Of a stretch of 43,154 nucleotides of DNA, positions 983 to 31,197 are shown in pieces. The notes beneath the pieces were generated by a model. It searched no databases. It was not told the DNA's origin and saw only the letters and a list, made by a program, of their open reading frames with translations. Within the stretch, counting starts at the first letter, position 1. The number at the start of each line of letters is the position of its first letter. Where the stretch lies: NCBI GenBank assembly GCA_016868915.1, contig VGFL01000013.1, positions 1 to 43,154 on the forward strand, given 5' to 3'. This DNA is from Bacteroidota bacterium (GTDB lineage: Bacteria > Bacteroidota > Bacteroidia > Flavobacteriales_D > Crocinitomicaceae). A program made the translations under genes and the position numbers.

Positions 983-2176
983 ATGATTACGTTATCAGAT
1001 AGAATTAATTCCATGGAAGAGTCTGCCACGATCGGTATGGCAAAAAAAAGTCGGGAATTAAAAGCTCAAGGAAAAGATATAATTTCATTGTCTTTAGGCG
1101 AACCAGATTTTTTCACTCCCCAATTTATAAAGGACGCTGCTGTAGAAGCTTTAAACAACAATTTTACGATGTATACGCCTGTTTCTGGTTATGACGACCT
1201 ACGAGAGAGTATATCACTGAAATTTAAGCGCGATAATGGATTAGACTATACGAAGGACCAAATTGTTGTTTCCACAGGGGCAAAACAGTCAATTGCAAAC
1301 GTCGTTCTGAGTATTATTAATCCAGGAGATGAGGTAATTATTCCGGCTCCGTATTGGGTCTCATATTTGGAAATTGTTAAAGTTGCTGAAGGAAAATCGG
1401 TAGTTGTTAACGCTGGAATTGAAAGTGATTTTAAAATAACTCCCGAGCAACTGGAAAAGGCGATTACTCCAAAATCAAGGATGATGATTTTTTCAACACC
1501 ATGTAATCCTACTGGAACCGTTTACAGTAAGAACGAACTCCATGCACTCGCTCAAGTAATTAAAAAATATCCTCAGTTGGTTGTAATCAGCGATGAAATT
1601 TATGAACACATTAATTTTATTGGAAAACATGAAAGTTTAGCTCAGTTTTCAGAGGTATACAATCAAGTAGTCACAATTAATGGCGTTTCCAAAGCATGGG
1701 CAATGACCGGTTGGCGTCTAGGATATATTGGTGCTCCAAAAGAAATCGCCGTTGCATGTGACAAAATGCAAGGGCAATTTACATCTGCTACATCTTCTAT
1801 TACTCAAAAAGCTACAATTGCGGCTATGCATGCCCAAACAACAGTTCTCAAAGATATGATCGAAGCTTTTCACAGAAGAAGAGATTTAGTATTGTCAAAA
1901 TTAAATGAAATATCGGGGGTAAAAACAAATGTTCCCGGAGGTGCTTTTTATGTTTTTCCTGATGTATCAACCTTTTTTGGTAAGTCGTATAATCAATACA
2001 CAATTAAAGATTCTAATGATTTGTGTATGTATTTGTTAGATGAAGGCCTAGTTGCCTTTGTTTCTGGTGAAGCCTTTGGTGCGCCCGAATGCTTACGAAT
2101 TTCCTATGCAGCCTCAGAGGAAACATTAACAGAGGCGATGCGTAGAATGAAAAACGCACTTGATAAATTGTTGTAA
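983..2176 (+). CDS. Pyridoxal-phosphate class I aminotransferase (aspartate aminotransferase type)
   Basis: This is a full-length fold-type I aminotransferase of 397 residues, the usual size for the bacterial AspB/AAT subgroup. Visible motifs are SLGEPDF near residue 37, the Asn-Pro motif CNPTGT at 174-179, the YEH loop after SDE (203-205) that holds the cofactor Asp, and the Schiff-base lysine K237 in NGVSKAWAMTGWRLGY. A C-terminal Arg for the substrate carboxylate lies in CLRISYA. It most likely interconverts aspartate and 2-oxoglutarate in the cytoplasm, but aromatic amino acids or prephenate are possible substrates for this subgroup. It is the first gene of a tight rightward run, 15 nt before the sugar kinase. 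Confidence 0.93.
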   Translation: MITLSDRINSMEESATIGMAKKSRELKAQGKDIISLSLGEPDFFTPQFIKDAAVEALNNNFTMYTPVSGYDDLRESISLKFKRDNGLDYTKDQIVVSTGAKQSIANVVLSIINPGDEVIIPAPYWVSYLEIVKVAEGKSVVVNAGIESDFKITPEQLEKAITPKSRMMIFSTPCNPTGTVYSKNELHALAQVIKKYPQLVVISDEIYEHINFIGKHESLAQFSEVYNQVVTINGVSKAWAMTGWRLGYIGAPKEIAVACDKMQGQFTSATSSITQKATIAAMHAQTTVLKDMIEAFHRRRDLVLSKLNEISGVKTNVPGGAFYVFPDVSTFFGKSYNQYTIKDSNDLCMYLLDEGLVAFVSGEAFGAPECLRISYAASEETLTEAMRRMKNALDKLL

Positions 2177-2191
2177 TTCATTTCTATATCC

Positions 2192-3190
2192 ATGAACGTT
2201 AGGCAGCTATTCGATTCATTCAAAGGCAAAAAAATTTTAGTAATCGGAGATGTAATGCTCGATCGCTACATGATTGGCAATGTACAGCGTATTTCACCTG
2301 AAGCCCCCGTTCCAGTCTTAGAAATGAAGAACGAAGAGGAAAGGTTAGGGGGTGCAGCCAATGTTGCCCTTAATTTGATTTCACTTGGAGCTCAGGTTGT
2401 CTTAGCATCTGTCGTTGGAAATGATTTACACGGAAAACGTATTCTTGAGCTTTGCGATGTAAATAATATAGGGTGTAATACAATTCTTCAATTGAATTCA
2501 CGTCCGACAACCGTTAAAACAAGAATTATTGGGAATAAACAACATTTACTGCGAGTTGATTCAGAAGTCAATGAGTATTTAAATGAATTTGATGAGAAAA
2601 ATTTTTTGGACCATATTCTTCCATCTGTTACGAGTCAGTTTGATGCAGTAATATTTCAGGATTACAACAAAGGACTATTGACCACAAAAATAATTGAAGA
2701 ATTAATACTACGCTGCAAGCAAGAGAATATTTATACGACAGTTGACCCAAAATTAAAGAACTTTTATTGCTACAGGGGAGTAACATTATTTAAACCAAAC
2801 TTAAAAGAATTAAAGGAAGGGACAGGATTAGTATTCAATTACCCTTCGGAAAGGCAAATTTTTGAGAAGGCCATTTTACAAGTAAACAAAAAAATAAATA
2901 ATTCATTGACATTTGTTACATTATCCGAATATGGGGTTGCCATTACAGATCATTCATCTGTTGAATACATTGATGCCCACTTGAGAACAATTGCGGATGT
3001 TAGTGGGGCAGGAGATACTGTAATTGCTGTAGCAACACTCTGTCTGTGTTCTGGTTGTTCGACAAAAGAAATTGCCCAAATTTCGAATGTAGCCGGCGGA
3101 ATAGTTTGTGAAAAATCTGGAGTAGTAAGTATTACTTGCGCTGAACTTATAGAAGAAATTGAAAAACTTTTCAATCCAAATCTTGTTTAG
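2192..3190 (+). CDS. PfkB-family heptose-7-phosphate kinase (RfaE/HldE domain I type)
   Basis: This ribokinase-like protein has 332 residues. The N-terminus ILVIGDVMLDRYMIG and RISPEAPVPVLE, the GGAANVALNL motif (53-62) and the anion hole/catalytic DVSGAGDT (269-276, base D275) closely fit the kinase half of HldE, which phosphorylates D-glycero-D-manno-heptose 7-phosphate for ADP-heptose synthesis. The usual C-terminal nucleotidyltransferase domain is absent, so a separate HldC-like protein would be needed elsewhere. The gene sits 15 nt after the aminotransferase and 11 nt before ubiE/menG. The substrate is inferred from family resemblance; another sugar phosphate is possible. Confidence 0.85.
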   Translation: MNVRQLFDSFKGKKILVIGDVMLDRYMIGNVQRISPEAPVPVLEMKNEEERLGGAANVALNLISLGAQVVLASVVGNDLHGKRILELCDVNNIGCNTILQLNSRPTTVKTRIIGNKQHLLRVDSEVNEYLNEFDEKNFLDHILPSVTSQFDAVIFQDYNKGLLTTKIIEELILRCKQENIYTTVDPKLKNFYCYRGVTLFKPNLKELKEGTGLVFNYPSERQIFEKAILQVNKKINNSLTFVTLSEYGVAITDHSSVEYIDAHLRTIADVSGAGDTVIAVATLCLCSGCSTKEIAQISNVAGGIVCEKSGVVSITCAELIEEIEKLFNPNLV

Positions 3191-22934: not shown

Positions 22935-23330
22935 CTATGAGAATTGGTCTTTCAGTTTATTCGTCATAAAGTTGAAAAGCGCATTCAATGGTTTTTCCAT
23001 CATCATCTTTAAAAAAGGATTAACATCACCATTAAATTCAAGGAAACCGGTGCTACCATTTTTTGTAGGTTGAGCGTAAATTATCAAATCAAATGGGAAT
23101 GGAGTCTTTTCTCCAGATTTTAATAGTAACTTTTCATTATTTCTATCAACCTGAACAAGGGAAATAATTATTCCTCCTTGTACTTTAAATGAACAGGCAT
23201 TCTCTGTAGAGGTAAACTCAGAGATTTTATCGTGAGGAAGGAGTTGGTAGATGTTTGATGAATTGGAAAGAAAATCGAAAATTTCAGCAGGACCAGCATT
23301 AATTTCAACTTTTTGACTTATTATTTGCAT
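22935..23330 (-). CDS. SRPBCC (START-like) superfamily protein
   Basis: This 131-residue protein is probably cytoplasmic. The opening VEINAGPAEIFDFLSNSSNIYQLLP is the classic START/SRPBCC beginning (beta strand, then the helix-loop that caps the cavity), followed by alternating strands and a long C-terminal helix (FLKMMMEKPLNALFNFMTNKLKDQF). These proteins bind hydrophobic ligands; no catalytic residues are assignable. It follows pyrE by 7 nt on the same strand, a pairing I associate with Bacteroidota, so it is likely co-transcribed. Confidence 0.82.
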   Translation of the reverse strand: MQIISQKVEINAGPAEIFDFLSNSSNIYQLLPHDKISEFTSTENACSFKVQGGIIISLVQVDRNNEKLLLKSGEKTPFPFDLIIYAQPTKNGSTGFLEFNGDVNPFLKMMMEKPLNALFNFMTNKLKDQFS

Positions 23331-23337
23331 CGGTCAA

Positions 23338-23979
23338 TTAAGGTAACCAAGAATCAGGTTTTTCTCTCCACTTGTGCAGAGAAACTATATCATCTTCAGT
23401 TATATATTTGGTTTTTAATGCTGAATCAACTAATGTGTCGTAATCAGATAATGTAAGAATTGGGCATTCAGCATTTTCAAAGTTCTTTAGGGCAATTTCA
23501 AAACCGTATGTAAAAATAGCCACAAGCCCTTTTATATCTAAACCCGCTTCACGAAGAGATTGAATAGCTTTGATACTGCTTCCCCCAGTTGAGATTAAAT
23601 CTTCAACAACTACAACTCTTTGTCCCTTTTCATAATATCCCTCTATTATGTTTCCCATTCCGTGATCTTTTGGTGAACTTCTTACATAAATAAATGGAAC
23701 GCCTAACTCTTGTGCTACTAAAACACCCTGAGGAACTCCACCAGTGGCAATTCCCGCGATTACATCTGGTTTTCCAAAATAGTCAATAATTGATTGAGCA
23801 TAGGCTTGACGAATGAAAGTTCTGATATTTGGGAAAGATAAGGTTATTCTATTATCACAATAGATTGGGGATTTCCATCCTGAAGCCCATGTGAATGGTA
23901 CTTTTGGTTGTAATTTTACCGCTTTAATTTGTAAAAGAAACTCAGCAATTTTTAAAGCTTTATCTTTGTGATAGATCAT
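23338..23979 (-). CDS. pyrE: Orotate phosphoribosyltransferase
   Basis: This type I PRTase of 213 residues converts orotate and PRPP to OMP in pyrimidine synthesis. The PRPP-binding motif VVVVEDLISTGGSS (near 121-134), the flexible-loop region YVRSSPKDHGMGNIIEG and the N-terminal FTWASGWKSPIYCDNR are all canonical. The start is ATG at 23979. A minus-strand -7 box TACATTTG ends 5 nt before it, implying a leaderless mRNA. The NUDIX-Sua5 gene is divergent with only 8 nt between. Confidence 0.95.
   Translation of the reverse strand: MIYHKDKALKIAEFLLQIKAVKLQPKVPFTWASGWKSPIYCDNRITLSFPNIRTFIRQAYAQSIIDYFGKPDVIAGIATGGVPQGVLVAQELGVPFIYVRSSPKDHGMGNIIEGYYEKGQRVVVVEDLISTGGSSIKAIQSLREAGLDIKGLVAIFTYGFEIALKNFENAECPILTLSDYDTLVDSALKTKYITEDDIVSLHKWREKPDSWLP
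23961..23968 (+). promoter_or_regulatory. -7 box TATCTTTG for NUDIX-Sua5
   Basis: An exact TAnnTTTG match lies inside the first codons of pyrE (antisense) and ends 19 nt before the ATG at 23988. Confidence 0.45.
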
Positions 23980-23984
23980 ATTCG

Positions 23985-23992
23985 CAAATGTA
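23985..23992 (-). promoter_or_regulatory. -7 box TACATTTG for pyrE
   Basis: On the minus strand 23992-23985 reads TACATTTG, ending 5 nt before the pyrE ATG. It overlaps the first codons of the divergent NUDIX-Sua5 gene, so the two 5' ends overlap by a few bases. Confidence 0.45.
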
Positions 23993-25544
23993 CAAAGTTT
24001 TTATCGATAATAGAGAAGTTAATTTTACAAACAATTTAAATTCAATTGATGGAAGATCCTACATTAAATTTAATTCAAATCAATCAGTTGTTCATGAGTT
24101 AATTCCCCTTTTAAGTACTCAGCCTAAAAATGAATCGGTATATGTTTATATCGATCAGTATAATTTTGATTTGAAAATATTTTTTAAAGAGTTTATTTTC
24201 GTCGATGCCGCGGGAGGTATTGTTCAAGAAAATGATGAGTTTTTATTTATTAAGCGCAATGGATATTGGGATATACCGAAAGGAAAACTTAACAATCGGG
24301 AATCTTTTGAAAAGGCCGCACAGAGAGAAATTGAAGAGGAATGTGGCATAAATAATTTAATTTTAAAAAATCAAATTTGCTCGACTTTTCATACCTATTT
24401 TTTTAAAAATGAATGGTATCTTAAAAAAACTATTTGGTATCATTTTGAATTAAAAAGCCATCAAGAAACAAGATGTCAAGAGGAAGAGGGAATTACAGAA
24501 ATTGTGTGGCTTCCAAGGTCTAAATTTCAAAAAATTTATAAAAATACATTTTCATCGATTCATTTTGTTATATCTGAATTTATAAATCAACTTGAAGCAG
24601 ATCAAATTAAGAGAGCCATAATTCTATTGAAAAAAGACGAGGTTATTGCAATTCCGACTGAAACGGTCTATGGTTTGGCTGCAAATGGGTTTTCAGTTAA
24701 CGCAATTCAAAAGATATATTCCCTGAAAAATAGACCCCATAACAATCCTCTAATTTTACATTGTGCCTCCCTGAAATCAGTTTTGGATCTTGTTACATCA
24801 ATTCCAGAGAAAGGAATAAAGCTGGCTAATAGATTCTGGCCTGGTCCTTTGACACTACTTCTTCCCAAAAATGATTTGGTTCCTGATAGTATTACTGCTG
24901 GTGGAAGCAGGGTAGGTGTAAGGGTTCCAAATCATCCATTAACACTGAACTTACTCAAACAATTGGATTTTCCTTTAGCTGCTCCAAGTGCGAATAAATA
25001 TGGTTCCATAAGTCCAACTTGTAAAAGCCATGTTGAATTTCAATTTGGGAATGAAATTCCCTTAATTTTGGATGGGGGACCATGCAATGTGGGAATTGAA
25101 TCAACCATAATTGGTTTTGAAGAAGAAAAAACAATTATTTATCGATTGGGGCAAATAACCATTGACGATGTAATTGATATTTGTGGTGATGAGGTGTACG
25201 TTCAAAACGAAGAGGGAGAAATAATTATTGCACCTGGAATGGTTAAACATCATTACGCTCCGAAAACCAAACTTATTATAGTATCAGAATATTCTGAGAT
25301 TAAATATTCACAAAAAATGGGGGTAATTCTTTTTAATAAGGAAAAGATTGAGGGTATTCCCTATGAGAATCAGGTGATTCTCTCCAGTGATGAAAATTTT
25401 ATCGAAGCATCAAAAAATTTATACAAAGCATTTTACACCTTAGACGAATTAGGGTTGGAGAAGATATTTATTCGTCTTCTTCCTGAGGTGGGTTTAGGAA
25501 TAAGCATCAATGACCGAATAAGAAGAGCAGGGTTGAAAGAATAA
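23988..25544 (+). CDS. NUDIX hydrolase fused to threonylcarbamoyl-AMP synthase (Sua5)
   Basis: One uninterrupted frame of 518 residues joins two enzymes. Residues 1-200 are a Bacteroidota-type NUDIX protein with a perfect box (GKLNNRESFEKAAQREIEEE plus CGI, residues 99-121) after the strand AAGGIVQEN. Residues 203-518 are a full Sua5: the YrdC domain starts VIAIPTETVYGLAANG (219-234), with the K247-N-R249 and S334-A-N336 active-site motifs, a linker PGMVKHHYAPKTKL and the C-terminal Sua5 domain. Sua5 makes threonylcarbamoyl-AMP for tRNA t6A37; TsaD, which uses it, is encoded at 30175. There is no in-frame ATG near the junction. NUDIX genes beside pyrE are usual; the fusion is not. Confidence 0.92.
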   Translation: MYKVFIDNREVNFTNNLNSIDGRSYIKFNSNQSVVHELIPLLSTQPKNESVYVYIDQYNFDLKIFFKEFIFVDAAGGIVQENDEFLFIKRNGYWDIPKGKLNNRESFEKAAQREIEEECGINNLILKNQICSTFHTYFFKNEWYLKKTIWYHFELKSHQETRCQEEEGITEIVWLPRSKFQKIYKNTFSSIHFVISEFINQLEADQIKRAIILLKKDEVIAIPTETVYGLAANGFSVNAIQKIYSLKNRPHNNPLILHCASLKSVLDLVTSIPEKGIKLANRFWPGPLTLLLPKNDLVPDSITAGGSRVGVRVPNHPLTLNLLKQLDFPLAAPSANKYGSISPTCKSHVEFQFGNEIPLILDGGPCNVGIESTIIGFEEEKTIIYRLGQITIDDVIDICGDEVYVQNEEGEIIIAPGMVKHHYAPKTKLIIVSEYSEIKYSQKMGVILFNKEKIEGIPYENQVILSSDENFIEASKNLYKAFYTLDELGLEKIFIRLLPEVGLGISINDRIRRAGLKE

Positions 25545-30156: not shown

Positions 30157-30185
30157 CAAAGTTAAATAATTCCGGTGCAACCAAA
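30157..30185 (-). promoter_or_regulatory. tamB promoter TTTG-N17-TAACTTTG
   Basis: On the minus strand TTTG (30185-30182) and TAACTTTG (30164-30157) are 17 nt apart; the -7 box ends 17 nt before the tamB ATG. The -33 element lies inside the first codons of the divergent tsaD gene. Confidence 0.55.
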
Positions 30186-31197
30186 AATTTATATCCTAGG
30201 AATTGAATCATCATGCGATGATACATGTGCATCCATTTCTGTTGATACTCAAATTCTTTCTAACGTAATTTCTTCGCAAAAGATACATGAAAAATACGGT
30301 GGTGTTGTACCCGAATTGGCAAGTAGATCACATATGCAAAATATTGTTCCTGTTGTTCAAGAAGCAATAAACCAAGCTGGTATTTCTTTAGAACAAATAA
30401 ATGCAATAGCTTTTACGAGGGGTCCTGGATTACTAGGTTCATTGATAGTTGGAACTTCCTTTGCCAAATCATTATGTTTGGCTCTCGAAAAACCATTAAT
30501 TGAGGTACATCACATGAAAGCTCATATTCTGGCTCATTTTATTGATAATGAAGAGAATAAAAAACCTGAATTTCCTTTTTTGTGCTTAACAGTTTCAGGT
30601 GGACACACACAAATAGTTAGAGTTAATTCTTATTATGATTTTGAAATTTTGGGATCGACAATAGATGATGCAGCTGGCGAAGCTTTTGATAAATGCGCCA
30701 AAATAATGGGCTTACCCTATCCAGGTGGACCACTGATTGATAAGTATGCGCAACAGGGCAATGCAAATCGATTTCACTTTAACAAACCAAAAGTTGAAGG
30801 TTTAGATTTTAGTTTCAGTGGACTTAAAACATCCTTTTTATACTTTATTGAAAAGGAAAAAAAACAAAATGAAAGTTTCATTAAGGAAAATCTTACTGAT
30901 CTTTGTGCGAGTTTACAAAAAACAATTTTAGATATTTTATTTCATAACCTTGAGTTAGCCTCTTTTAAAAGTGGAATTACTTCGGTCGCAATAGCAGGAG
31001 GAGTTTCTGCAAATAGCGGTTTAAGAAATAGGTTAAAATCGTATGAAAAACAAAAAAAATGGAAAATCTTTATTCCTGATTTTCAATTTTGTACTGATAA
31101 TGCTGGTATGATTGCTGTCTCTGGATATTTTAATTATTTGCAAAATAATTTTGTAGATCAATCCGTCCAAGCTTCAGCACGAATACGCGACTTTTGA
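30175..31197 (+). CDS. tsaD: tRNA N6-adenosine threonylcarbamoyltransferase
   Basis: This ASKHA-fold protein of 340 residues transfers threonylcarbamoyl from TC-AMP to A37 of ANN-decoding tRNAs, with TsaB and TsaE. The N-terminal GIESSCDDTCASI, the metal-binding HHMKAHILAH motif (HxxxH), LTVSGGHTQIV, STIDDAAGEAFDKCAK, and the C-terminal AIAGGVSANSGLR and FCTDNAGMIA blocks are all intact. The start is GTG at 30175; no ATG precedes it in a suitable place. Its substrate maker (Sua5) is encoded 4.6 kb upstream, beyond tamB. Confidence 0.97.
   Translation: MQPKIYILGIESSCDDTCASISVDTQILSNVISSQKIHEKYGGVVPELASRSHMQNIVPVVQEAINQAGISLEQINAIAFTRGPGLLGSLIVGTSFAKSLCLALEKPLIEVHHMKAHILAHFIDNEENKKPEFPFLCLTVSGGHTQIVRVNSYYDFEILGSTIDDAAGEAFDKCAKIMGLPYPGGPLIDKYAQQGNANRFHFNKPKVEGLDFSFSGLKTSFLYFIEKEKKQNESFIKENLTDLCASLQKTILDILFHNLELASFKSGITSVAIAGGVSANSGLRNRLKSYEKQKKWKIFIPDFQFCTDNAGMIAVSGYFNYLQNNFVDQSVQASARIRDF

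Follow-up and report, generated by a model that had tools for sequence, protein, structure and literature searches.

A single-frame fusion of a NUDIX hydrolase and a Sua5-type threonylcarbamoyl-AMP synthase in three genomes of one Crocinitomicaceae genus

We analysed a 43,154-nucleotide stretch of contig VGFL01000013.1 (the window) from the Bacteroidota assembly GCA_016868915.1 (family Crocinitomicaceae), in which a single gene (23988..25544, forward strand, stop codon counted in) encodes a 518-residue protein with a NUDIX domain followed by a complete Sua5, the enzyme that makes the activated intermediate of N6-threonylcarbamoyladenosine (t6A) synthesis. The fusion is genuine, and close relatives were seen in two other genomes of the same genus. 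The protein is probably bifunctional, with two tethered enzymes that keep independent ancestral jobs.

The initial annotation had described a continuous frame of 518 codons, and reading from 23988 to 25544 indeed encounters no stop codon. Two congener genomes (G014 and G030; the window genome is G000) encode full-length relatives at positions 1501-3060 of their loci (L004 and L005), which are 57% and 56% identical to the window protein over residues 1-517. None of the three genomes contains a stop codon or frameshift at residues 190-205. Since the same fusion lies beside pyrE in both congeners, an assembly artefact is ruled out; the window gene also sits well inside its contig. Three Pfam domains score above their gathering cut-offs in the protein: NUDIX (residues 74-182), Sua5_yciO_yrdC (213-388) and Sua5_C (394-514).

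The C-terminal half is a predicted L-threonylcarbamoyladenylate (TC-AMP) synthase. Its catalytic, YrdC-like domain (residues 207-395; 24606..25172, forward strand, as for all parts of the gene) matches PF01300 (E 9.5e-56; 188.5 bits against a cut-off of 25.1) and the SUA5 C-terminal domain (residues 396-518; 25173..25541) matches PF03481 (E 1.5e-19; 71.3 bits against 22.9). The NCBIfam model TIGR00057 (L-threonylcarbamoyladenylate synthase) recognizes this half at 174.5 bits (cut-off 123.2), and the solved Sua5 proteins 2eqa (E 2.1e-65) and 6f87 align over nearly its whole length. Using the residues of Pa-Sua5 that one study assigns to ATP, to threonine or to the gating loop (PMC10321239), we mapped by eye K247xR249, S334xN336, T224, S372, R386, P416-G417-M418 and H422-Y423; the KxR/SxN tetrad, the threonine-site residues and the PGM (416-418) and HY (422-423) motifs of the gating loop are all found. 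The complete Sua5 with K-N-R and S-A-N motifs that had been proposed at the outset is thus present in both of its domains. At residue 416 (25233-25235) the gating motif reads PGM in the three fusions and SGM in all 19 of the unfused genus Sua5 proteins compared.

This half is the only candidate TC-AMP synthase in the window genome. The sole other PF01300 gene there (L002, 1444-2058) matches YciO (1k7j, E 2.3e-48) far better than the best Sua5-type chain (9d3h, E 2e-24). According to PMC12506659, Escherichia coli YciO falls short of TsaC in vitro by over four orders of magnitude and does not take its place in vivo. A second PF01300 gene thus exists, but it is YciO-like, and a second Sua5 copy in the window genome is ruled out. 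G014 and G030 each carry one other PF01300 gene, with open frames of 213 and 210 amino acids. Genes for TsaE, TsaD and a second, TsaB-like PF00814 protein were found in all three fusion genomes. The window's tsaD, for the t6A transferase (30175..31197, forward strand; PF00814, E 8.2e-95), lies 4.6 kb from the fusion; in G014 and G030 tsaD and the fusion are on different contigs, and a t6A gene cluster around the fusion is ruled out as a conserved feature.

The N-terminal half contains a NUDIX domain (residues 69-190; 24192..24557) that matches PF00293 (E 2.3e-14; 54 bits against a cut-off of 21.1). NUDIX boxes follow the rule G-x5-E-x7-REUxEExGU, and the perfect box claimed for residues 99-121 (24282..24350) is there: GKLNNRESFEKAAQREIEEECGI begins at residue 99, and the box is complete in the window protein and in both congeners. 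An AlphaFold2 model of residues 1-202, with a mean predicted local distance difference test score (pLDDT) of 93.1, confirmed the NUDIX fold. Its best fold match is the diadenosine tetraphosphate (Ap4A) hydrolase 3i7u of Aquifex aeolicus (Z 16.7, root-mean-square deviation 1.5, 128 residues aligned), followed by the diadenosine hexaphosphate (Ap6A) hydrolase Ndx1 (1vc8, Z 16.1) and Mycobacterium smegmatis MutT1 chains (Z 15.2-15.9). A sequence search also ranked 3i7u first, with identities of 23-25% to 3i7u and 1vc8. The N-terminal half is perhaps a pyrophosphohydrolase of the Ap4A/MutT1-like kind. Residues 1-68 (23988..24191) begin with MYKVFIDN and are otherwise poorly conserved, with 35-37% identity between the window protein and the other fusions (block pLDDT 84-91). 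In the NUDIX proteins of loci L041, L049 and L051, about 40 residues fewer separate the MYKVFIDN start from the NUDIX domain, so most of this N-terminal part seems dispensable.

Selection on the fusion is mostly purifying. Between G014 and G030, the ratio of nonsynonymous to synonymous divergence (dN/dS) is 0.17 for the N-terminal part, 0.15 for NUDIX, 0.12 for YrdC and 0.20 for SUA5. Several synonymous distances to the window gene are saturated; where computable, dN/dS between it and the other two is 0.11 for NUDIX (one of two pairs), 0.13 and 0.17 for YrdC and 0.17 for SUA5 (one of two pairs). The fusions retain 28, 27 and 27 of the 28 columns that do not vary among 20 unfused NUDIX proteins; they also retain 76, 74 and 74 of the 80 columns invariant in 19 unfused Sua5 proteins. 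Judged by its sequence, the fusion looks functional.

Divergence between the G014 and G030 genes is unevenly distributed, with proportions of synonymous differences of 0.67 for residues 1-68, 0.43 for NUDIX, 0.09 for the YrdC core and 0.30 for SUA5. The PyrE proteins of the two genomes, by contrast, are identical. This pattern looks like recombination with a diverged allele.

The two halves meet at residues 191-206 (24558..24605), which alignment and codons mark as the site of the old sua5 start. Between residues 161 and 259, the only in-frame ATG, GTG or TTG codons of the window gene are GTG 173, inside the NUDIX domain, TTG 214, past the start of the Sua5 core, and TTG 230. At residue 202, the point at which stand-alone Sua5 proteins start, an in-frame ATG is present in both G014 and G030. 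The initial annotation's view that Sua5 cannot be made separately, for want of an ATG at the junction, thus holds for the window gene but not for its two relatives. A full-length model places a single continuous helix (residues 189-215) across the junction, with block pLDDT falling from 93 to 67. The mean pLDDT of this model is 62.2, and its Sua5 half, which had no alignment rows, is of low confidence. The model thus gave no reliable arrangement of the two halves.

The fusion is rare and apparently lineage-specific. Three cases turned up among 86 genus genomes (E 1e-60 or better), and the same three among 240 family genomes (E 1e-85 or better). Samples of 399 order, 395 class and 395 phylum genomes, which overlap with one another and with the genus and family sets, yielded no further fusion at strict cut-offs (E 1e-75, 1e-78 and 1e-75 or better, with at most three candidates scored per genome), searches that would miss a fusion scoring lower over its two halves together, or one outside the phylum. 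A PF01300 search of the nine genus genomes that had no match at 1e-60 recovered no fusion-length frame, though some of these assemblies are incomplete where Sua5 is missing or cut off and could hide one. In G006 the NUDIX match reaches the contig end. Synthesis of t6A is near universal; G005 (99% complete) has no PF01300 match whatever, neither Sua5 nor YciO. A scan of viral contigs for Sua5 returned three loci, too few to interpret, one of which aligned to the NUDIX part instead. PADLOC matched a candidate model once, within the NUDIX range, and PHROGs yielded seven families, mostly in the NUDIX or Sua5 range.

Comparison with unfused genes points to how the fusion arose. The unfused NUDIX gene adjoins pyrE in 20 of 20 genus loci and in 22 further named loci (L036-L057), whereas unfused sua5 lies away from NUDIX and pyrE in 19 of 19 genus loci, mostly beside a response regulator gene (17 of 19) or the gene for ribosomal protein L31 (15 of 19), and never beside this NUDIX gene. 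These counts refer to 20 NUDIX and 19 unfused Sua5 stretches chosen from among the genus matches, with gene names assigned by eye. Sua5 was therefore apparently the gene that moved, and it was then apparently joined head-to-tail to the NUDIX gene, in keeping with the earlier suggestion that gene joining beside pyrE produced the fusion. The three fusions group together in quick trees of Sua5, NUDIX and PyrE (22, 23 and 23 rows), with Shimodaira-Hasegawa-like approximate likelihood-ratio support of 100, 94 and 100, and the fusion apparently has a single origin. Horizontal acquisition from elsewhere is not favoured, because PyrE, too, places the species with the fusion in one group.

In the window, pyrE (23338..23979, reverse strand) diverges from the fusion, with 8 bp between the two start codons, and is followed by a gene for an SRPBCC-like small protein (22935..23330, reverse strand; named by eye), which is a neighbour of pyrE in each fusion locus and throughout the 22 named loci. 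The MYKVF and pyrE start codons are 8 bp apart in each of the fusions and 7-9 bp apart in the named loci; MYKVFIDN was among the patterns used to retrieve the latter, which biases the apparent conservation of that stretch among them. By eye, the pyrE and NUDIX start codons could overlap as CATG in 19 of the 20 unfused genus loci. A TAnnTTTG box, a reading based on the Bacteroidota -7 consensus, spans or adjoins the NUDIX start on the pyrE strand in 43 of 45 mutually related loci (not L055 or L061), a count made without a chance control. On the NUDIX strand, 20 of the 45 loci have such a box within pyrE, always at the same offset, which pyrE codons alone may explain. From these positions, the promoter of each gene may sit within the coding sequence of the other.

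We thus propose that the three species inherited the fusion from a common ancestor within the genus, in which sua5 was relocated to a position downstream of the NUDIX gene that diverges from pyrE. The stop codon of the NUDIX gene would have been lost as the two were joined. The C-terminal half would be the cell's only TC-AMP synthase, supplying TsaD-TsaB-TsaE. The N-terminal half would be a working NUDIX pyrophosphohydrolase that does the same job as its unfused relatives. The two active sites would be tethered, perhaps by the helix, without chemical coupling, and the chief effect of the fusion would be that both halves are expressed together from the divergent NUDIX/pyrE promoter region. Two independent activities are favoured because unfused NUDIX genes are not tied to sua5 in the loci compared and because the fusion is so rare.

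Several points weigh against this account. Enzymes that are fused are often linked in function as well, a reason to expect coupling, and the survival of this one through about 43% amino-acid divergence may mean that the connection is useful. The absence of a second Sua5 is weak evidence in G014, which is 85% complete. Residues 1-68 look weakly constrained, with dN/dS of 0.61 and 0.67 between the window gene and the other two fusions, and nearly invariant columns are less well kept than invariant ones (10, 11 and 11 of 16 for NUDIX; 8 of 11 in each fusion for Sua5). The NUDIX half is one of five in its genome, which has four other PF00293 matches. MutT1-type chains score less than 1 Z from the Ap4A hydrolase, and since scores within 1 count as tied, the substrate class is a lead only.

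The alternatives concern what, if anything, one half does for the other. As in other adenylate-forming enzymes, which make Ap4A in a side reaction (PMC7705103), ATP might attack Sua5-bound TC-AMP to form Ap4A or related dinucleotides, which the fused NUDIX half would cleave as they leave. Excerpts from the literature describe Ap4A synthesis as often proceeding through acyl- or enzyme-adenylates, with NUDIX Ap4A hydrolases giving AMP and ATP (PMC7705103), and Sua5 as converting ATP to AMP and inorganic pyrophosphate (PPi; PMC9654439). The first rank of Ap4A/Ap6A hydrolases in both sequence and fold comparisons is also consistent with such a reaction. However, we found no paper in open-licence PubMed Central that joins Sua5, threonylcarbamoyl and Ap4A, none of the 19 unfused sua5 loci has the NUDIX gene as a neighbour, and a generally important coupling would be expected to make the fusion commoner than 3 in 240 family genomes. 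We therefore regard this scheme as rather unlikely. It is unlikely, too, that the protein is a self-cleaning t6A enzyme, with a Sua5 whose adenylate gives rise to dinucleoside polyphosphates in a side reaction and a NUDIX half that degrades these products where they form; were this so, bacterial Sua5 in general would be a source of Ap4A-type alarmones.

The original proposal that the NUDIX half removes leaked TC-AMP, or the PPi by-product, found no support and merits hardly any credence. NUDIX enzymes cleave diphosphate-linked compounds, whereas TC-AMP is an acyl-monophosphate anhydride without a diphosphate bond, so its direct cleavage is a poor fit with NUDIX chemistry, and Ap4A formation as a side reaction would be the chemically sounder link; nor do we know of NUDIX enzymes that act as inorganic pyrophosphatases. 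The NUDIX half could instead sense a nucleotide such as Ap4A or a nucleoside triphosphate and tune Sua5, as in NrtR-type regulators. The fold matches include an NrtR NUDIX domain with ADP-ribose (3gz8) and the predicted helix crosses the junction, yet all three fusions retain an intact catalytic box and confidence in the helix falls towards a half that is not reliably modelled; such regulation seems improbable. A very improbable alternative is that Sua5 is also made alone by internal initiation, leaving the fusion partly nominal. The ATG at the old start in G014 and G030 would permit this, but in the window gene that position holds no start codon, the nearest being GTG 173 or TTG 214.

If the halves are independent, which we judge most likely, the fusion is a curiosity of genome rearrangement, in which an essential gene was captured by an unrelated neighbour and in two of three descendants still has a start codon at its old start. 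The fusion nevertheless offers a natural test of whether the adenylate-forming Sua5 has side products that need NUDIX clearance. Both enzymes are of known kinds, and the interest is modest unless coupling is shown. Among the open-licence PubMed Central papers listed (including PMC8469502), judged mostly by title or abstract, we met no NUDIX-Sua5 domain combination, and a search of the same literature for a NUDIX gene with pyrE (orotate phosphoribosyltransferase) in Bacteroidetes found no paper.

Set against known systems, the C-terminal half resembles Sua5/TsaC2 (TIGR00057 with PF03481; 2eqa, 6f87) in both domains, the catalytic residues and the gating loop, and differs in having a NUDIX half in place of its own start. 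The N-terminal half shares its fold and NUDIX box with Ap4A/Ap6A hydrolases (3i7u, 1vc8) and MutT1-type enzymes, but is 23-25% identical to 3i7u and 1vc8, carries 68 extra N-terminal residues and has a tentative substrate class. Precedents for joining a YrdC-like domain to another enzyme domain are provided by TobZ and HypF, as described in excerpts of PMC9654439; there the partner is a Kae1-like domain, where the fusion has NUDIX instead. The bifunctional NMN (nicotinamide mononucleotide) adenylyltransferase/ADP-ribose pyrophosphatase 2qjt, going by its entry title, likewise combines a NUDIX-fold enzyme and an adenylyltransferase on one chain, though in another pathway and with another partner enzyme.
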